DNA of 64,000 nt from Falsarthrobacter nasiphocae (GTDB taxonomy: Bacteria; Actinomycetota; Actinomycetes; Actinomycetales; Micrococcaceae), in assembly GCF_031456275.1 (NCBI RefSeq), contig NZ_JAVDUI010000001.1, forward strand, positions 1,322,965 to 1,386,964, read 5' to 3'. The translations under genes and the position numbers were made by a program. The notes below the pieces were generated by a model. That model saw only the letters and a list, made by a program, of their open reading frames with translations, was not told the origin of the DNA and searched no databases. Shown here in pieces: positions 19,052-63,976 of the stretch. Within the stretch, counting starts at the first letter, position 1; each line of letters starts with the position of its first letter.

Positions 19052-19060
19052 GGAAAATCA

Positions 19061-19146
19061 CTCCATCGATCTTGGCGGAAGCACCCTGCTGAATCAGGGT
19101 TGCTGCGGCGTCATGGAGCCAAGTCTCTCGGCCGCTCTGGATGGTT
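19061..19146 (-). ncRNA. SAM-sensing riboswitch (SAM-I/S-box-like) before the sulfur operon
   Basis: Read on the minus strand, the leader has the SAM-I core in order: GAGAGACTTGGCTC, CATGACGCC, GCAGCAACC, a short P3 hairpin (CCCTG/CAGGG) and GGTGCTTCCGCC, then AAGATCGATGG. This parallels the S-box consensus GAGGGA-CTGGC, GATGAAGCC, GGCAACC, GGTGCTAATTCC. Possible P1 is CCATC (19141-19145 side) with GATGG just before the start. The last bases GATGGAG contain the ribosome-binding site of the first gene, so ligand binding could block translation directly. Assignment by motif only; the SAM-I versus actinobacterial variant distinction needs a covariance model. Confidence 0.78.
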
Positions 19147-19327
19147 CGTGTTTCTAGAATGCATCGAGCGGGCGCTCTGCGCAAGTCCCCTCGTGGGCCT
19201 GCCCACATGCTGGGCTTCTGGCCCCTGGTCTCATCCCGGGGCCGCTCGCCCCTTGCCCCTGGTCTCTTCCCCGCGCCCCGCGCCCCGCTGCGGGGCTGGG
19301 GCAGGGGGTGGGGAAGGGCGGGTCTCG

Positions 19328-45845: not shown

Positions 45846-46283
45846 TCAGTGCCGGACGGGCTCCTGCCCGTGCTTCATGGCCTTGTTGAGGGCGAGGAAG
45901 AGGTGGACGATGCCGATGGTCAGCGCGATGTGCCCGAGGCCAGCGATGCCCGAGACGGCCGCGGAGGCGTGCACGCCGAGGACCTGCATGACGCCGTGCG
46001 TGGTGAGCATGGTCAGCGTGACGAGGAGGCCCGCGTTGTAGAACCAGAAGAACAGGGAGAAGAGGGTCTTGGCCGGGGACTGCGCTGAGGAGAGGTCGAA
46101 GACCTTGTCGAGGGCGAGTGCCACGAGGAAGACGATCATGCCGAGGGCCAGCGCGTGCGTGTGCACGACGGAGAGCATGGTCTCCCCGGTGAAGCCGCGG
46201 GACTTCGTGAACTCGCGGTAGAAGAGGCCGGCGAGGAGGCCGAGCGTTGCGTACAGGGCTGCGGACGTGAAGAGCTTTCTCAT
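45846..46283 (-). CDS. DUF2871 membrane protein
   Basis: This 145-residue protein has four spans with conserved His positions (VVHTHALALGMIVFLVALALD, TTHGVMQVLG, GLGHIALTIGIVHLFLALNKAM), matching the DUF2871 family, which may bind haem or metal. ATG 46283 with GGTGG five bases upstream is preferred to an in-frame GTG at 46292. It is 45 bases before the SseB-like gene on the same strand. Its promoter would be in the AT-rich 46293-46624 gap. Confidence 0.85.
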   Translation of the reverse strand: MRKLFTSAALYATLGLLAGLFYREFTKSRGFTGETMLSVVHTHALALGMIVFLVALALDKVFDLSSAQSPAKTLFSLFFWFYNAGLLVTLTMLTTHGVMQVLGVHASAAVSGIAGLGHIALTIGIVHLFLALNKAMKHGQEPVRH

Positions 46284-46624
46284 AACAACCACCGTATCGG
46301 GGGCAGGCGCCCGGCGGGCTCCACCGTCCGGTTGATGTGGACGGGCACCCGAGGGGCGGTGGCGGGGCTCGCACCGGGTGCCGGGGGAGTGTGCCGAATG
46401 TTATATAACGAATTGAATTCAATTCAGCGCAGTTTTGAGCGGGATGTTTTTTTATGAGCCATTCCGCGCCCTTTCGGGGAAGTGCTGAGTGTTAGCGGCT
46501 CTAATTCTTTCAGAGGGTTTGCTCGCGGCGCATTTCCTTGATTATTGTTGAGTGGTCTTGCTCGGTGTGCGGCCTGATTTTTCCGGCCCGCCGACATCCC
46601 CCTCAATCTCAGGAGTAGTCCCTC
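46284..46624. other. AT-rich divergent intergenic region with a 16-base palindrome
   Basis: Located between DUF2871 (-) and a secreted-protein gene (+). It contains TTATATAA (46401-46408) and a perfect 16-base palindrome (46410-46425, GAATTGAATTCAATTC) in otherwise GC-rich DNA, plus a T7 run near 46445-46451. No gene is visible. An operator and promoters for both flanking genes are likely. Confidence 0.55.
46410..46425. promoter_or_regulatory. 16-base palindrome GAATTGAATTCAATTC
   Basis: Perfect palindrome adjacent to a TTATATAA element. Base composition and position suggest an operator for a dimeric regulator; the regulator is unknown. Confidence 0.5.
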
Positions 46625-47437
46625 ATGTCCGACCATCCCTCTGGCGCCATCGCCCCCCGTGTCACGCGCCGGACTGTGGCGCGAGGGGCGGCCTGGTCCG
46701 CCCCGGCCATCGCTCTCTGCTCGACGGCGCCCGCCGTATCGGCCTCGACTCCCCCTCGTCCCGAGGATCCATGCGTCCCGCAGGACCTCGTCGTCGACTG
46801 GTCCAACCAGGCCGTTTGGACCCGCGACCCGGGTGGCGCCTGGGCGCGCGCGGTCCTCAATGCGGGCAAGCCGAACGAACTGCGCATGACCGTGGCGACG
46901 AGGATCGTCGGCTCGATGCGCCTCGGATCGATTGACGGTGCCAAGGGCAACGACAGCCTGGCGCTCAGCCCCGAGCCCATCGGCGGAACGCCGGACCCCG
47001 GGCTGACTTTCCACCAGTCCCAGACCTCTGCCCAGCCCGGCGGGTGGAACAACCGGGTCATCTACTCCGTGGCATTCACGGACGGGGCCGGCGCCCCCGT
47101 GGTGGTCTCCAATCTCAGGTTCACGATCACGGACATCGACTCCACCGCGGGCGACTTCTGGGACTGCGTGGCCCTGTCCTCCGGCTTCGCGCTCACGAGC
47201 CTCGGCGCGGGAGTCCATGGCTCCGGCACGACGTCGGATCCGCTGCGGACCACCGCCGAGAACGGCCCCGTCCCGAATCACTCGGGCCAGGGCAGCGCGC
47301 AGGTCTTCTACCCGAAGACGGGCGGCTTCTCGATCGCCTATTGGAGTGCCGCGACATACTTCAGCGGTGTGGACACGGATCAGAAGATCTTCCTCAGCAA
47401 CATCTCTTTCCGTTACCAGAAGACAATCGGCTGCTGA
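46625..47437 (+). CDS. Tat-like secreted protein of unknown function
   Basis: A 270-residue exported protein: N-terminus TRRTVARGAAWSAPAIALCSTAPAVSAS carries a twin arginine, hydrophobic core and AxA-like cleavage site at about residues 38-42; such RRT-GAAWSAP signals are common in actinobacterial surface proteins. The mature region is beta-rich (LRFTITDIDSTAGDFWDCVALSSGFALTSLG, SAQVFYPKTGGFSIAYWSAATYFSG) with three Cys, including the last residue. No LPXTG or membrane anchor is seen, so it may be free or surface-bound in another way. Related to no family I recognise. AGGAG lies 9 bases upstream. Confidence 0.8.
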   Translation: MSDHPSGAIAPRVTRRTVARGAAWSAPAIALCSTAPAVSASTPPRPEDPCVPQDLVVDWSNQAVWTRDPGGAWARAVLNAGKPNELRMTVATRIVGSMRLGSIDGAKGNDSLALSPEPIGGTPDPGLTFHQSQTSAQPGGWNNRVIYSVAFTDGAGAPVVVSNLRFTITDIDSTAGDFWDCVALSSGFALTSLGAGVHGSGTTSDPLRTTAENGPVPNHSGQGSAQVFYPKTGGFSIAYWSAATYFSGVDTDQKIFLSNISFRYQKTIGC

Positions 47438-47636
47438 CTTTGTGAGCGGGGCGAGTGGCCCGGGCGTTGAATTCGGCCGGGTCATTCTTTGCGCCCTCAT
47501 GGGCGAGTGGCCCTCCTGCGCAAAAGGGTGGGGTGGGAATGGGCCTGCGCCTTGGGCTCAGTCGGCGCGCGTCGGCGGGGCGACGAGCTCGGGGCGAACT
47601 CGGGGGCGCTGCCGTGCGCACGGCACGCGCAGGCAA

Positions 47637-47676
47637 AGCAAGGAGGGACTCGCCGCGTGGCGAGTCCCTCCTTGCT
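47637..47676. terminator. 18-base perfect hairpin, bidirectional terminator
   Basis: Perfect 18-base arms at 47637-47654 and 47659-47676 with a 4-base loop, between the secreted-protein gene (+) and tRNA-Gly (-). Flanking A- and T-rich bases (AGGCAAAG before, TTCTCTT after) allow it to end both transcripts. Confidence 0.85.
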
Positions 47677-47681
47677 TCTCT

Positions 47682-47755
47682 TGGAGCGGCTAGACAGAAT
47701 CGAACTGACGTATCCTGCTTGGGAAGCAGGCGCTCTACCATTGAGCTATAGCCGC
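47682..47755 (-). tRNA. tRNA-Gly (anticodon CCC)
   Basis: Minus strand: acceptor GCGGCTA / TAGCCGC, D arm GCTC-AATGGTA-GAGC, anticodon stem CCTGC/GCAGG with loop TTCCCAA (anticodon CCC, decoding GGG), T loop TTCGATT and encoded CCA after a T discriminator base. The T stem GTCAG/CTGTC has one T-T mismatch in the second pair. The tRNA body is 71 bases, 74 with CCA. Confidence 0.93.
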
Positions 47756-47772
47756 ATGTGGATATGACTCTA

Positions 47773-48534
47773 TCAGGAGCACGGCGTCGCGTCAAAATCG
47801 GCGGCCATGCCGCGCCGCAGGGCGTCGAACCAGCGGATGTGGGACTCCACGAGACCCGCCGCGTCGTCGCCGCGCCCCTCCGCGAGCGCGTCGAGGATCT
47901 CGTGGTGCTGCTGGCGCAGGCAGCCCGCCACCTCGCCCCAGTGCGGCATTGTGGCAACGGCGGCCGTGACGTACGAGCGGATCGCCTCACGCAGGGACCC
48001 CATGACCGTCTCGATGACGACATTCCCTGCGAGGGCGGTGGCCTCGGTGTGGAACTGGGTGTCGAGCAGGTGGAACTCCTCGGCGGGCGTGTCCGCGCTG
48101 TCCATGCGCTCGAGCAGGCCGCGCAGGTGCTCGAGCCGCTCCGGCTCGACGTCTCCGCGGGCCACGCGCCGGGCGGCCTCCCTGGCTCCCCAGGTCTCAA
48201 GGATCACGCGCGTCTCGATGACGTCCTCGGCGGGCAGGGAGGACGAGGCCATGTGGAGCCTCAGGGCGGCGGACAGGCCCGCGCTGGGCTCGGCGATGAT
48301 CACCGTGCCGGACTCTGGGCCTGAGCCGGGTGCCGAACGGACGACGCCGAGGACGGAGAGGATGCGGATGGCGTCCCGGACCGACGCCCGCGAGATCCCG
48401 TGCTCTGCGGCGAGCGCCCTCTCGCCGGGCAGCCGGTCCCCGAGCCGGAGGGAGCCTGAGCGGAGCCCTTCCTCGACCTCCCGGAGAACGGTCTCGTAGG
48501 AGCGGCCTTGGGGCTCGGAGGCGGCGGTGTTCAT
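47773..48534 (-). CDS. lldR: FadR/GntR-family regulator (LldR-like)
   Basis: The 253-residue repressor has an N-terminal winged helix-turn-helix (SYETVLREVEEGLRSGSLRLGDRLPGERALAAEHGISRASVRDAIRIL) and a C-terminal FCD all-helical sensor with metal-ligand candidates (HLLDTQFHTEATAL; HHEILDALAEGRGDDAAGLVESHIRWF). It lies just downstream of a lactate permease and near lutABC, and FadR-type operators stand in the divergent gap, so a lactate-responsive repressor is likely. ATG 48534 is preferred to an upstream in-frame start at 48711 because the coding part begins at MNTAASEPQ. Confidence 0.85.
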   Translation of the reverse strand: MNTAASEPQGRSYETVLREVEEGLRSGSLRLGDRLPGERALAAEHGISRASVRDAIRILSVLGVVRSAPGSGPESGTVIIAEPSAGLSAALRLHMASSSLPAEDVIETRVILETWGAREAARRVARGDVEPERLEHLRGLLERMDSADTPAEEFHLLDTQFHTEATALAGNVVIETVMGSLREAIRSYVTAAVATMPHWGEVAGCLRQQHHEILDALAEGRGDDAAGLVESHIRWFDALRRGMAADFDATPCS

Positions 48535-48569
48535 GGTCAGCTGAGGTCCGTCCTGGATGGGTGGAAGCA

Positions 48570-48605
48570 GGGACGCGCCCCGCACCGAGGTGCGGGGCGC
48601 GTCCC
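48570..48605 (-). terminator. terminator after lldP
   Basis: A perfect 17-base stem, 48570-48586 with 48589-48605, lies 24 bases past the lldP stop on the minus strand. lldR follows, so readthrough would be needed for co-expression. Confidence 0.8.
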
Positions 48606-48629
48606 CTGAAGCGGCGAATACTGCCAATT

Positions 48630-50318
48630 CTAGGGAAGCATCCAGCCGAGGACCGGAGTGGACTGAAGGTAGACGAGGCAGCAGAGGAAGAAGAGCATGC
48701 CCACGGACCATCCGATGACGGTCTTGAGGATCTCGGACTCCTTGCCTTCCATCCCCACGCTCGTCGCCGCGATGGCGAGGTTCTGCGGGGAGATGAGCTT
48801 GCCGACCACGCCGCCCGTCGTGTTGGCGGCGACGAGCAGGTTCGGGTCGATCCCCGCCTGCGTTGCGGCCGTCTGCTGGAGCTTGGCGAAGAGGGCGTTG
48901 GCGGAGGTGTCAGAGCCTGTGACGGCCGTTCCGATCCATCCGAGGATCGGGGACAGGAAGGCGAAGAAGCCGCCCGTCGCCGCGAGCCACGTGCCGATGG
49001 CGATCGTCTGGCCGGAGAAGTTCATGACGTAGGCCAGCGCCAGGACGGAGACGATCGTCAGGCCGGCGAAGCGCATCCGCCACAGGGTGCGCCCGATCTC
49101 CGCGAGGGCGTTCGGCACCGAGAGGCTGTATCGGCCGCCCTCGGAGCGGACGCTGTAGATGATCGCCACGAGGACGCCCGTGATGAGCAGGAGCGTGCCC
49201 GGGTTGGAGAGCCACTGGAAGGCGTAGACCGTGGAGGTGGACACCTTGCCGGAGGTTGTCATGAGGTGGCCGTCGAGGCCCGGCCACGGGATCTTGACGT
49301 CCGTGGACGCGAGGGCCTTCGGGACGTTGACGCCGAGCGTCCAGAGCTTGGCCACGCCGAAGAGGATGATGACGAGCAGGTACGGCATGAGCGCCATGAC
49401 GGTGCGGGAGCCGGTGAGGGCGTCCTCGCGGGAGCCGGCCTCGACTGGGGCGATCCCGAGGCGCTCGCGGGCGGCCTGCGCCTGGGCGTCCCGGGCTGGC
49501 GAGCGCCACACCTTGAGGAACAGCACGGCGGCGCCGAGGCCCGCGAGGGAGGCGACGATGTCGGTCAGCTCGTACGAGAAGTAGTTGGCGCAGAGGAACT
49601 GGGCCAGGGCGAACGCGCCGCCGGTGACGAGGGCCGGGGCCCACGCGTCCTTGACGCCGCGGCGCCCGTCGATGATGAAGAGGAGGATGAGCGGGACGAC
49701 GATCGCGAGCAGCGGTGCCTGCCGGCCCACGATGGCGCCGATGTGGTCCGCGGGGAGGTCGGTGAGCTTGCCCGCCGTCGTGATGGGAATGGCGATGGCG
49801 CCGAAGGCGACGGGCGCCGTGTTGGCGAGGAGCACCGAAGTGGCGGCCTTGAGGGGCTTGAGGCCGAGGGCCATGAGCATCGTGGCGGTGATGGCCACGG
49901 GCGCGCCGAAGCCGGCGAGGGCCTCGAGGAGGCCGCCGAAGCAGAAGGCGATGAGGACGGCCTGGATGCGGATGTCGCCTCCGCCGATCGAGTCGAAGAT
50001 CCGGCGCAGGTCCTCGAACCGGCCGGAGAGGACCGTGACCTGGTACAGCCACACGGCCATGACCACAATCCAGAACACGGGGAACGCGCCGAAGACCGCG
50101 CCCTGGCTGGCGGACAGGAGCGCCAGCCCCACGGGCATCTTCATGACGACGACGGCGACGGCTAGCGCCACGGCGAGGCTGATGAGGCCGGCCACGTGGG
50201 CTTTGAGCTTGACGATCGCGAGGAGGATGAAGAACGCGACAAGGGGGATGAACGCCACAAGGGCGGTGAGCGCGACCGAGCCGCCCAGGGCGTCGGTATG
50301 CGGGGTGAACGTCGTCAT
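48630..50318 (-). CDS. lldP: L-lactate permease
   Basis: The 562-residue transporter has about 13-14 spans and LctP features: FPVFWIVVMAVWLYQVTVLSG, FGGLLEALAGFGAPVAITATMLMALGLKPLKAATSVLLANTAPVAFGAIAIPI, TGSDTSANALFAKLQQTAATQ and the GGVVGKLISPQNLAIAATSVGMEGKE block. It takes up lactate with protons. ATG 50318 is preferred to an in-frame start at 50414, which would add residues over the operators. It is divergent from lutABC with 166 bases shared; LldR would control both. Confidence 0.93.
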   Translation of the reverse strand: MTTFTPHTDALGGSVALTALVAFIPLVAFFILLAIVKLKAHVAGLISLAVALAVAVVVMKMPVGLALLSASQGAVFGAFPVFWIVVMAVWLYQVTVLSGRFEDLRRIFDSIGGGDIRIQAVLIAFCFGGLLEALAGFGAPVAITATMLMALGLKPLKAATSVLLANTAPVAFGAIAIPITTAGKLTDLPADHIGAIVGRQAPLLAIVVPLILLFIIDGRRGVKDAWAPALVTGGAFALAQFLCANYFSYELTDIVASLAGLGAAVLFLKVWRSPARDAQAQAARERLGIAPVEAGSREDALTGSRTVMALMPYLLVIILFGVAKLWTLGVNVPKALASTDVKIPWPGLDGHLMTTSGKVSTSTVYAFQWLSNPGTLLLITGVLVAIIYSVRSEGGRYSLSVPNALAEIGRTLWRMRFAGLTIVSVLALAYVMNFSGQTIAIGTWLAATGGFFAFLSPILGWIGTAVTGSDTSANALFAKLQQTAATQAGIDPNLLVAANTTGGVVGKLISPQNLAIAATSVGMEGKESEILKTVIGWSVGMLFFLCCLVYLQSTPVLGWMLP

Positions 50319-50356
50319 TGCGCGGCTCCTGGTGAGGGACTGAATGGTGGGAGCAA

Positions 50357-50381
50357 TGGTCAGACCACAAAGGTCTGACCA
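50357..50381. promoter_or_regulatory. LldR-type operator, lactate genes
   Basis: TGGTCAGACC (50357-50366) and GGTCTGACCA (50372-50381) are perfect inverted arms around 5 bases. The inner TGGTCAGACCA (50357-50367) fits the FadR-family site TNGTNNNACNA. It lies 39 bases before the lldP start. Confidence 0.75.
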
Positions 50382-50438
50382 CTGAAGGGTACCCGATGTT
50401 TCGTGACTTCGCACACACTTAGGGGGGCTTGTCTGATA

Positions 50439-50462
50439 AGGTCAGACCACATCCTCTGACCA
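50439..50462. promoter_or_regulatory. second LldR-type operator near lutA
   Basis: AGGTCAGACCA (50439-50449) matches the first operator with one change, and GGTCAGA (50440-50446) pairs as an inverted repeat with TCTGACC (50455-50461). It lies about 25-45 bases before lutA, where a repressor would block transcription. Confidence 0.65.
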
Positions 50463-50484
50463 GCATCATGAGAGTCGAGAAACC

Positions 50485-51321
50485 GTGAACGAGACCCCCA
50501 CCATCGATGAGCTCAAGGCGGTCGCCTCGCGCCGCCCCCTGCGCATCGCCCTCTTCGCGACCTGCATTGTGGACGCCATGTACCCTCGCGTCGCCCACGC
50601 CACCGTCGCCATCCTCGAGCGCCTCGGCCACACGGTCGTGTTCCCGGGAGGTCAGGCGTGCTGCGGGCAGATGCACGTCAACTCCGGCCACTTCGCGGAG
50701 GGCAAGCGCGTCATCGAGAACCACGTCCGCGCCTTCACGGACGAGGAGTACGACGTCGCCGTGGCCCCGTCGGGCTCCTGCGTCGCCTCGGTCAAGCACC
50801 AGCAGCCCATGATCGCCGAGCGCTTCGGGGACACGGACCTCGCGGAGAAGGCCACCTGCATTGGGGCCAAGACTCTCGAGCTGTCCCAGCTCCTCGTTGA
50901 TGTCCTCGGCATCACGGACGCGGCCGCCCAGCTCGGCTCGTACTTCCCCCACTCCCTCACCTACCACCCCAGCTGCCACGGCATGCGCCTGCTGCGCCTG
51001 GGGGACCGCCAGGAGAGCCTGCTCAAGTCCGTGGAGGGGATCGACTACCGCCCGCTGGGCGAGTCCGACCAGTGCTGCGGGTTCGGCGGCACGTTCTCCG
51101 TCAAGAACTCGGACGTCTCCTCGGCCATGCTCGCGGACAAGACCGCTCGGATCACCGAGACCGGCGCAGACGTCTGCTCAGGCGGTGACGCCTCCTGCCT
51201 CATGCACATCGGCGGCGGCCTCTCCCGGCAGGGGGAGCGCACCCACACCTTCCATGTCGCCGAAATCCTCGCGAGCACGCGCGAGAACCCGCTCAACCCC
51301 CACGAGGAGGTCAACGCGTGA
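50485..51321 (+). CDS. lutA: LutA, lactate utilization (CCG-domain) protein
   Basis: The 278-residue protein has two cysteine-rich CCG domains: GGQACCGQMH and CVASVKHQQ in the first half, then HPSCHGMRLLRLG, DQCCGFGGTFSVKNSDVS and GDASCLMHIGGGL in the second, the pattern of LutA and GlpC-like proteins that bind Fe-S. With LutB and LutC it oxidises L-lactate to pyruvate. GTG 50485 is the start; the ribosome-binding site AGAGTCGAGAAACC is weak. It overlaps lutB by 4 bases. Confidence 0.95.
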   Translation: MNETPTIDELKAVASRRPLRIALFATCIVDAMYPRVAHATVAILERLGHTVVFPGGQACCGQMHVNSGHFAEGKRVIENHVRAFTDEEYDVAVAPSGSCVASVKHQQPMIAERFGDTDLAEKATCIGAKTLELSQLLVDVLGITDAAAQLGSYFPHSLTYHPSCHGMRLLRLGDRQESLLKSVEGIDYRPLGESDQCCGFGGTFSVKNSDVSSAMLADKTARITETGADVCSGGDASCLMHIGGGLSRQGERTHTFHVAEILASTRENPLNPHEEVNA

Positions 51322-52922
51322 GCACGTTCCTTGGACTTCCCGGCCTGCGCCCGGGACACCGCTACCACCGCCCCCACGGACAGGAGGCCCCCGAGAGCAT
51401 GGGGCGCGTGGTGGCCCACGAGGACTTCCCGGACGCCGCGCCCGTTCACCTCGCCGACGCCCAGCTCCGCTCCAACCTGCGCCACGCCACCCACACCATC
51501 CGGGACAAGCGGCTCAAGGTCGTTGCCGAGCTCGACGACTGGGAGCTGCTGCGCGAGTCCGGCAGCCAGATCAAGGCCCACGCGATGAAAAACCTCGCGG
51601 ACCTCCTGGAGCAGTTCGAGGCCAGCGCCACCGCGGCCGGCGCCACGGTCCACTGGGCCAAGGACGCAACCGAGGCCAACGAGATCATCCGCGGCATCCT
51701 CCGCGAGGAGGGCGCCGAGGAGGTCATCAAGGTCAAGTCGATGGCCACGCAGGAGATCGGCCTCAACGAGGACCTGGCCGAGCACGGCATCAAGGCGTTC
51801 GAGACCGACCTCGCCGAGCTGATCGTCCAGCTCGACGATGACCTCCCCTCGCACATTCTCGTTCCCGCCATCCACAAGAACCGAGACCAGATCCGGGACA
51901 TCTTCCTCCGCGAGATGGAGGACGCGCCCGAGGGGCTCACGAACAATCCCGCCGAGCTCGCCGCCGCCGCCCGCACACACCTCCGCCGGAAGTTCCTCTC
52001 CACCAAGGTCGCGATCTCCGGCGCGAACTTCGCCCTCGCTGACACGGGCACGCTCGGCGTCGTCGAATCCGAAGGCAACGGCCGCATGTGCCTCACGCTC
52101 CCGGAGACGCTCATCTCCCTCGTCGGCATCGAGAAGGTGCTGCCGAGCTTCGAGGACATCCACGTCATGGGGCAGCTGCTCCCGCGCTCGTCCACCGGCG
52201 AGCGGATGAACCCGTACACCTCGCTGTGGACGGGCGTCACGCCGGGGGACGGCCCGCAGACGGTGCACATCGTGCTCCTCGACAACGGGCGCACCCGGGC
52301 ACTCGCTGACGAGTACGGGCGTTCGGCCCTGCACTGCATCCGCTGCTCCGCCTGCATGAACGTGTGCCCGGTGTACGAGCGCACGGGCGGCCACGCCTAC
52401 GGCTCCACGTACCCGGGGCCCATCGGCGCCATCCTCTCGCCGCTCCTCACAGGCACGGACGTCGAGGGCAATGACTCCCTCCCGTTCGCGTCGAGCCTCT
52501 GCGGCGCGTGCTACGACGCCTGCCCGGTCAAGATCAACATCCCGGACATCCTCGTGCACCTGCGCGGGCGGTCCGAGGACGGCAAGCAGGGCGCGTCCCG
52601 CATGACGCAGCTGGACGCTGGCCTCGCAGGCGCGACCTGGCTCTTCGCGGACGGACGCCGCTTCGGTGCCCTCCAGAAGGGCCTGGTGGGCGCTCGTCTC
52701 GCGGGCCGCTTCCTCCCCGGTCCCGGCGGCAAGATCTCCGCGCTGCCCGGCATCGCCGGCAAGTGGACGGTCTCGCGCGACCTCCCGCAGGTGCCCGCGC
52801 ACAGCTTCCGCGCGGACTTCGCGGCCGGGCGCTCCCCGTACTCTCGGGGGACGACGACGCCGGCCGCCGGTGGCGAGCGCCCCGAGTCTGCCGCCCCCAC
52901 GAGCGAAGGAGACGTGAAGTGA
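51318..52922 (+). CDS. lutB: LutB, lactate utilization iron-sulfur protein
   Basis: This 534-residue protein combines a LUD (DUF162) domain (about 50-300; GANFALADTGTLGVVESEGNGRM, IEKVLPSFEDIHVMGQLLPRSSTGE) with a ferredoxin-like region containing two Cys sets: CIRCSACMNVCPVYE and CGACYDACPVKINIPDIL. Those ligate two 4Fe-4S clusters that carry electrons from lactate. A C-terminal part of about 120 residues is more variable. The ATGA overlap couples it to lutA, and GTGA couples it to lutC. Confidence 0.95.
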   Translation: MSTFLGLPGLRPGHRYHRPHGQEAPESMGRVVAHEDFPDAAPVHLADAQLRSNLRHATHTIRDKRLKVVAELDDWELLRESGSQIKAHAMKNLADLLEQFEASATAAGATVHWAKDATEANEIIRGILREEGAEEVIKVKSMATQEIGLNEDLAEHGIKAFETDLAELIVQLDDDLPSHILVPAIHKNRDQIRDIFLREMEDAPEGLTNNPAELAAAARTHLRRKFLSTKVAISGANFALADTGTLGVVESEGNGRMCLTLPETLISLVGIEKVLPSFEDIHVMGQLLPRSSTGERMNPYTSLWTGVTPGDGPQTVHIVLLDNGRTRALADEYGRSALHCIRCSACMNVCPVYERTGGHAYGSTYPGPIGAILSPLLTGTDVEGNDSLPFASSLCGACYDACPVKINIPDILVHLRGRSEDGKQGASRMTQLDAGLAGATWLFADGRRFGALQKGLVGARLAGRFLPGPGGKISALPGIAGKWTVSRDLPQVPAHSFRADFAAGRSPYSRGTTTPAAGGERPESAAPTSEGDVK

Positions 52923-63681: not shown

Positions 63682-63815
63682 GTTGACTCCTTGCGAGGTG
63701 GGGATGCGCGGCACAGTGCAGTGCCGCGTCAAGTGTCTGACCTCAGCATAGTCCGCCAGGCTGGGTGGCGTCTGCGGTATGGTGGAGGCGTGAGCGCGGG
63801 GTTTTCCGCGCGCGT

Positions 63816-63925
63816 CACACGACAGGGGAGCGCCGGCCGTCATGGCCAGAGACACAGGGCGCTGAGAGTGCATTCATGCAGACCCTCGAACCTGATCCGG
63901 TTAGTACCGGCGGCAGGGAGTCGAG
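63816..63925 (+). ncRNA. TPP riboswitch (THI element)
   Basis: Contains the conserved THI blocks in order: ACGACAGGGGAGC, CTGAGAG (63862-63868), GACCCT, GAACCTGATCCGG (63888-63900), TAGTACCGGCG and AGGGA (63915-63919). These form the pyrimidine- and pyrophosphate-binding helices. It precedes a truncated gene and should repress it when thiamine pyrophosphate is plentiful. Confidence 0.93.
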
Positions 63926-63934
63926 TCATCTCGC

Positions 63935-63976
63935 CAGGCATGCCTGGACCCCTTCCATGCACATTTGTTGGAAGGA
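63935..63976 (+). promoter_or_regulatory. expression platform of the TPP riboswitch
   Basis: A 14-base palindrome CCAGGCATGCCTGG (63935-63947) is followed by a hairpin CCTTCCA (63951-63957) with TGGAAGG (63969-63975). The second arm contains the ribosome-binding site GGAAGGA, so ligand-dependent folding can hide it and block translation. Confidence 0.6.

Follow-up and report, generated by a model that had tools for sequence, protein, structure and literature searches.

In this work, we find that a gene encoding a protein of 270 amino acids, P0001, is preceded by two abutting perfect palindromes in an AT-rich intergenic region, carries a leader shared by a family of mostly unrelated proteins, holds a mature part that belongs to an uncatalogued sequence family, and is missing from the syntenic site of one sister genome. 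Judged from its leader and its predicted structure, the gene appears to encode a secreted protein that is uncatalogued without being exotic and whose predicted fold can be recognised, within a striking leader-sharing set. Based on these findings we propose, at about even confidence, that P0001 is a stand-alone, Tat-exported, adhesin-like β-sandwich whose gene would be controlled by a dimeric repressor.

Locus organization and the paired palindromes

The region under study, positions 46284-47437 of the window (the whole 64-kb stretch of DNA that was analysed), consists exactly of a 341-bp intergenic, counted from the DUF2871 start, and an ORF at 46625-47437. The features of the locus are the following.

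45846..46283, minus strand: DUF2871 membrane protein, the divergent neighbour (PF11070, E 5.8e-44)
46284..46624, no strand: divergent intergenic separating the DUF2871 gene from the secreted-protein gene; no stretch of the window is richer in AT than its right part
46400..46409, no strand: perfect 10-bp palindrome GTTATATAAC, giving TATAAC (-10-like) on either strand
46410..46425, no strand: perfect 16-bp palindrome GAATTGAATTCAATTC, putative operator
46611..46615, plus strand: AGGAG, RBS-like, 9 nt 5′ of the ATG, read directly
46625..47437, plus strand: ORF of the secreted protein P0001, 270 aa
46625..46744, plus strand: Tat-like leader with core TRRTVARGAAWSAPAIALCSTAPAVSA, which recurs at about 16 further sites of the genome
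46745..47434, plus strand: mature domain, 230 aa, predicted β-sandwich (antigen I/II V-domain / PrgB / GbpC-like)
47636..47677, minus strand: perfect 19-bp inverted repeat just 3′ of tRNA-Gly, putatively terminator-like
47682..47755, minus strand: tRNA-Gly (CCC), right border of the presence/absence interval
47773-48711: GntR/FCD regulator by Pfam, right of tRNA-Gly

Three neighbours were tested by Pfam, and are DUF2871, SseB and GntR/FCD. Within 47773-52922, the GntR/FCD gene (Pfam) is followed by lactate permease-like and LutABC-like genes, named from a reading of their translations only. Elsewhere in the window, a TPP riboswitch (63814-63936, plus strand) and a SAM riboswitch (19060-19147, minus strand) exceed the Rfam gathering scores.

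The 10-bp palindrome GTTATATAAC, with TTATATAA as its core, directly adjoins GAATTGAATTCAATTC, so that the two span 26 bp together, and they are the only perfect palindromes of at least 10 bp and at least 70% AT in the window. The 200-bp windows of lowest GC in the 64 kb fall in 46381-46590 (49% GC). The original prediction that an AT-rich region with palindromes stands apart from its GC-rich surroundings is therefore confirmed, with both sequences lying where AT content over 200 bp is highest in the window. The length of 16 bp is by itself not rare, because 3.7 perfect palindromes of at least 16 bp are expected in 64 kb by first-order Markov simulation and four were found. None of the simulated palindromes of this length reached 70% AT (30 simulations); with the base composition of the 341-bp intergenic itself as background, a 16-bp palindrome has a probability of 0.006, and one abutting another of at least 10 bp arose in 0 of 3000 simulations. 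A second copy of GAATTGAATTCAATTC at up to 3 mismatches was not found in the genome (2,195,465 bp), nor was a second exact GTTATATAAC. The palindrome observation is sound and non-random.

A plausible local operator

An operator role for the palindromes, served by a putative regulator, is plausible. The operator of a dimeric HTH repressor would be a promoter site with two-fold symmetry that recurs at genes under the same control; here the symmetry is perfect, and AATTG-N4-CAATT was spotted, post hoc, once more beside a different Tat-leader gene. The TATAAC hexamers are putative -10 elements, as a promoter scan scored no sigma-70 consensus pair in the intergenic 46284-46624.

The motif AATTGNNNNCAATT, chosen after the second site had been seen, occurs at exactly two places in the own genome, namely this intergenic and just 5′ of the Tat-leader gene G000:1914464, with one more site (552878) at one mismatch. 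Of the two other genomes of the genus, G001 has one exact site, before a gene outside the leader set, and seven places at one mismatch against one for a reversed control pattern, and G002 has none at one mismatch. Simulations put the chance of a hit in any of 11 upstream regions at 0.002 for the exact motif, rising to 0.06 when a match at 12 of 16 positions is accepted; in 152 kb of own DNA, two further places that have no such role carry 12-of-16 matches. The pairing with G000:1914464 is a lead. The inverted repeat GACAATTGAAAACAATTGTC (L071 4592-4611, that is G000:C1 1914591-1914610) stands just 5′ of a Tat-leader gene other than that of P0001, and is preceded by TTAGGCTAAC, which may resemble the box of the iron regulator DtxR/IdeR.

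The AT-rich stretch might instead be just the ordinary promoter of a gene with a Tat leader, in which the palindromes have been kept by chance or drift and no specific regulator is involved. In the 11 other Tat-leader genes examined, the 200 bp preceding the earliest possible start are likewise below the usual GC of the genome (0.49-0.67), and their upstream regions, cut at the match start, carry no comparable inverted repeat save that at G000:1914464; palindromes of 16 bp are in themselves expected several times in 64 kb. However, the abutting pair never arose in the 3000 local simulations and the AT-rich palindromes are unique in both window and genome, and we consider this explanation rather doubtful. 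It is also unlikely that they are the operator of the divergent DUF2871 gene, with the secreted gene merely lying beyond them. They do lie nearer the DUF2871 start (117-142 bp) than the secreted ORF start (about 200-225 bp), and GTTATATAAC supplies a TATAAC facing DUF2871; yet GTTATATAAC is found nowhere in either of the other genomes of the genus, though both carry DUF2871, and an AT-rich palindrome of at least 10 bp within the 330 bp before DUF2871 is absent from 15 of 15 other loci, G001 and G002 included (the set leaves out one partial match, L056).

As a signal common to the whole protein family the palindrome was rejected, since AT-rich inverted repeats never reached a score of 7 upstream of the 8 of 10 homologue genes scanned (L088 and L091 were left out) or, as cut at the match start, upstream of the 11 paralogues. 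The operator, if one, would therefore be local, because neither these homologues of other genera nor the 15 DUF2871 loci have such palindromes. A dedicated regulator, as envisaged in the original prediction, did not emerge: the search for a regulator of the palindromes gave no candidate, and the nearest regulator gene found, GntR/FCD, sits in a neighbourhood that G002 keeps without the secreted gene. That the palindromes serve as operator for GntR/FCD itself was rejected, since G002 retains this regulator although it lacks both the gene and the palindromes.

A leader shared by mostly unrelated proteins

The N-terminus of P0001 carries TRRTVARGAAWSAPAIALCSTAPAVSA. A whole-protein search of the own genome gave 12 matching places, 11 of them mostly through the leader, and a 33-position profile made from 12 leaders found 17 places there (weakest E 3.8e-4), 12 of which had been used to build it (L067-L074 among the loci), as well as 9 places each in G001 and G002. 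Across the 59 genomes searched, the profile matched 15, own included, and none of the other 44; the leader is therefore more than a generic Tat composition. All 12 leaders share R15, R16, W24 and P27 (two prolines occur in all), with the consensus RRxVAxGAAWAAPAVALASAAPAxAAS. The mature parts of the same 12 proteins are joined in two pairs only (blastp, E 0.01), and Pfam gave no match above its cut-off for any of the proteins, a weak match to Cna_B (E 0.007) falling short of it. In G002 (C16 84175-89564), five consecutive leader-bearing ORFs of 350-372 aa are arranged like a tandem array.

The curated Tat-signal models of Pfam and NCBIfam, which are short and score weakly, match neither P0001 (E ≤1) nor the 11 other leader proteins. 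The Tat-like signal noticed at the outset is nevertheless upheld by the twin arginine in 12 of 12 own-genome leaders and in 10 of 10 related ORFs of genome_contigs, and the own genome encodes TatC (PF00902, E 4.4e-51). From leader conservation and TatC, Tat-dependent export of P0001 is predicted and likely.

A wider proposal, which we regard as possible and on balance rather unlikely, is that this genus keeps a repertoire, of about 17 genes in the own genome, in which one conserved Tat leader is combined with mature domains that are almost wholly unrelated to one another and, as far as tested, absent from Pfam; these genes would form a 'common leader, interchangeable cargo' set exported in folded form, to which the window gene would add a free-standing polymer-adhesin-like domain, part of the set being placed under a shared AATTG-N4-CAATT operator.

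An uncatalogued sequence family

No Pfam or NCBIfam family fits P0001 or the 11 members of its alignment (A4), for which scattered single-member Pfam hits (best E 0.0022) were taken as chance, and a profile search of the PDB gave no sequence match at E ≤10. Relatives of the mature domain occur in 9 of the 395 family genomes searched, own included, which belong to 5 of 32 genera; the weakest of them (G273, E 9.1e-4) was dropped from the alignments. In genome_contigs there are at least 10 relative loci, from six Nocardioides, Kocuria polaris (probably the same locus as that of G149), Janibacter massiliensis, Brachybacterium paraconglomeratum and Marihabitans asiaticum, and this count is a lower bound because just two peptide patterns were scanned. 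By sequence, the mature part represents an uncatalogued family found also in Kocuria, Nocardioides, Janibacter, Brachybacterium and Marihabitans.

The residues C10, W19, F111, V121, L124, F126, T129-D132 (the TDID motif), D140, V142, G161 and P166 are invariant in 11 of 11 aligned rows, and C230 is present in 10 of 11. The ORF of P0001 stops at a cysteine, 230 aa after the leader, and the relatives are similarly short, consisting of leader plus this domain. The reading frame of L088 loses its C-terminal part, and in L034 (G223, 1489-2167) a mature-domain relative has its leader in a different frame, possibly a pseudogene or a frame error.

The predicted fold of the mature domain

An AlphaFold model built from 11 sequences (mean pLDDT 77.2, pTM 0.81) has 14 strands, and the expectation of a β-rich mature part is borne out in this predicted structure. 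Foldseek ranked PrgB, the antigen I/II V domains and GbpC first, with 15 hits at E ≤0.001 (best 1.7e-5, for PrgB), the TM-scores of these significant hits being low (0.32-0.43, rmsd 8-17). With VIA-align, the top 13 PDB entries were all antigen I/II V domains, PrgB, GbpC or Sgo0707 (Z 9.4-11.0 and 6-15% identity, with 173-200 residues superposed at an rmsd of 3.5-4.9), followed after a gap of 1.5 Z units by DUF4465 (Z 7.9) and CBM27 (Z 7.7). A viral fold library returned 5 hits at E ≤0.001, to phage tail and uncharacterised proteins, with TM 0.24-0.30. The original prediction had placed the mature part in no recognised family; this holds for sequence, as no Pfam, NCBIfam or PDB sequence match exists, and gives way for the predicted fold, which is recognisable.

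Antigen I/II, PrgB, GbpC and Sgo0707 are united as polymer adhesin domains in PMC10952558, and PMC7726212 describes their core as an antiparallel β-sandwich of 12-16 strands, a range into which the 14 predicted strands of P0001 fall. As ligands of these domains, PMC7726212 names dextran, DNA and other polymers, together with a conserved cation site. In the alignment, the invariant D130, D132 and D140 are candidate residues for such a site, which in these domains sits in the central ridge. The P0001 domain is thus predicted to be built like a polymer adhesin domain, and on the strength of the model it may work like one. We do not class it as a member, because the TM-scores are low, the comparison of profiles with GbpC was negative, a second model does not confirm the fold, and stalk and anchor are absent. 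An hhalign comparison with two GbpC domains gave a probability of 0.6%, for a shallow 2-sequence profile; neither GbpC (PF08363) nor CshA_NR2 (PF18651) is among the Pfam matches (E ≤1) of the 11 family members; and searches of the own genome with both gave no match, the CshA_NR2 search giving nothing in controls either. The fold rests on one model, because the single-sequence model of the Nocardioides relative L082 is too poor (pLDDT 42.6).

We judge it improbable that P0001 represents, instead of an adhesin, a CBM4/27/29-like carbohydrate-binding module or what remains of a secreted glycosidase. CBM27 and CBM29 do align at Z 6.2-7.7 and jelly-roll folds overlap, whereas the 13 best VIA-align entries belong without exception to the polymer adhesin domains, separated by the 1.5 Z gap, and the relatives, made of leader and domain, are so short that there is no room for a catalytic domain. 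The description of P0001 as a cell-surface protein found no corroboration, since neither an anchor nor a stalk is seen in it.

Presence and absence of the gene within the genus

In G002, the region of DUF2871, tRNA-Gly and GntR together with the next 3.4 kb is collinear with the window at 74-100% DNA identity. Only about 550 bp separates DUF2871 from tRNA-Gly there, of which only about 50 bp nearest DUF2871 align, and the syntenic site has neither the secreted gene nor the palindromes between its conserved flanks. This empty site bears out the variation in presence within the genus that had been anticipated. In G001, a different gene adjoins DUF2871 and the tRNA is on a separate, short contig, so the interval is unreadable. 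No match to the mature domain was found in G001 (82% complete) or G002. By these sequence comparisons, the genus varies in whether it has the secreted gene, a pattern that gain and loss appear to fit equally well.

Two observations concern G002 itself. Positions 48630-52000 of the window have 82.5% identity to it, and its DUF2871/tRNA-Gly intergenic (C12, L064) contains, by eye, several long inverted repeats on GCACCC...GGGTGC and repeated TGTTCCTGGGC-like pieces.

The gene has a GC3 of 0.867, against a window mean of 0.901 (sd 0.045), and its CAI lies at the 23rd percentile among 48 putative window genes picked by a simple script. A normal gene is supported by this GC3, the RBS-like site and the conservation of the family. 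A recent foreign origin is not supported, because codon usage is ordinary, and the foreign codon usage once suspected did not appear in the codon and GC check. The idea of an acquired gene has only the empty G002 site and the patchy distribution in its favour, and the native codon usage speaks against it.

In particular, a recent arrival on a mobile element at tRNA-Gly would account for the gene and palindromes being missing from the syntenic site in G002 and for homologues in just 9 of 395 family genomes. We consider it decidedly unlikely: codon usage is native, 46284-47681 holds no repeat of any 11-base stretch of tRNA-Gly, the Pfam-tested neighbours are DUF2871, SseB and GntR/FCD, and loss in the sister species accounts equally well for the distribution. 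A tRNA-integrated island was rejected, such a repeated stretch being what would mark the attachment site. The search of plasmids gave no match.

A working model and its significance

Taken together, the preferred reading of a stand-alone exported domain under a dimeric repressor would operate as follows. P0001 would be exported in folded form through the Tat pathway, by means of the leader that it has in common with mostly unrelated secreted proteins, and would most likely serve as a small binding protein, either extracellular or at the cell envelope. Its predicted fold would be of the antigen I/II, PrgB and GbpC polymer adhesin type, minus the stalk and the LPxTG anchor, and the conserved N- and C-terminal cysteine pair C10...C230 may hold it together as a disulphide. 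A homodimeric repressor would most likely bind the two abutting palindromes, which overlap the TATAAC -10-like hexamers facing both directions, and an environmental signal would switch the secreted gene and possibly the DUF2871 gene also.

If the fold prediction is true, a domain described in these two papers from long wall-anchored adhesins would occur also as a small Tat-exported actinobacterial protein, with a disulphide candidate in place of the stalk. PMC10952558 reports 2056 NR2-like proteins and classes 690 as stalked and anchored, so that stand-alone forms may have been met and set aside there. Our literature search found no paper joining 'polymer adhesin domain' and 'twin-arginine'. 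Further, one 33-residue leader profile can gather many unannotated secreted proteins, and the palindromes offer a 26-bp bait for finding the regulator.

Comparison with known systems

The canonical Tat motif is SRRxFLK. Like Tat signal peptides, the leaders of P0001 and its companions have an invariant twin arginine, an Ala-rich hydrophobic stretch and an AxA-like end. They differ in having V, M, I or L in the F position and mostly A, V or S in the L position, in an extra invariant Trp-x-x-Pro, and in matching no Pfam or NCBIfam Tat model.

DUF4465 and CBM27/CBM29 are β-sandwiches too and form the next-best structural groups (Z 6.2-7.9), at lower Z and in a range that the tool calls a common arrangement, with no sequence match. 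With the polymer adhesin domains (the antigen I/II V domains of SspB, SpaP and Pas, PrgB, GbpC, Sgo0707 N1 and CshA/B NR2), P0001 shares a predicted antiparallel β-sandwich of about 180 residues, at Z 9.4-11.0 to all of those named except CshA/B NR2, the NR2 structures not being among the 50 best VIA-align matches listed. Both are exported, P0001 by prediction. However, P0001 has no detectable sequence similarity to these domains, and it is a stand-alone domain of about 230 aa, without stalk and without LPxTG, that carries instead a Tat-like leader and a conserved cysteine pair.
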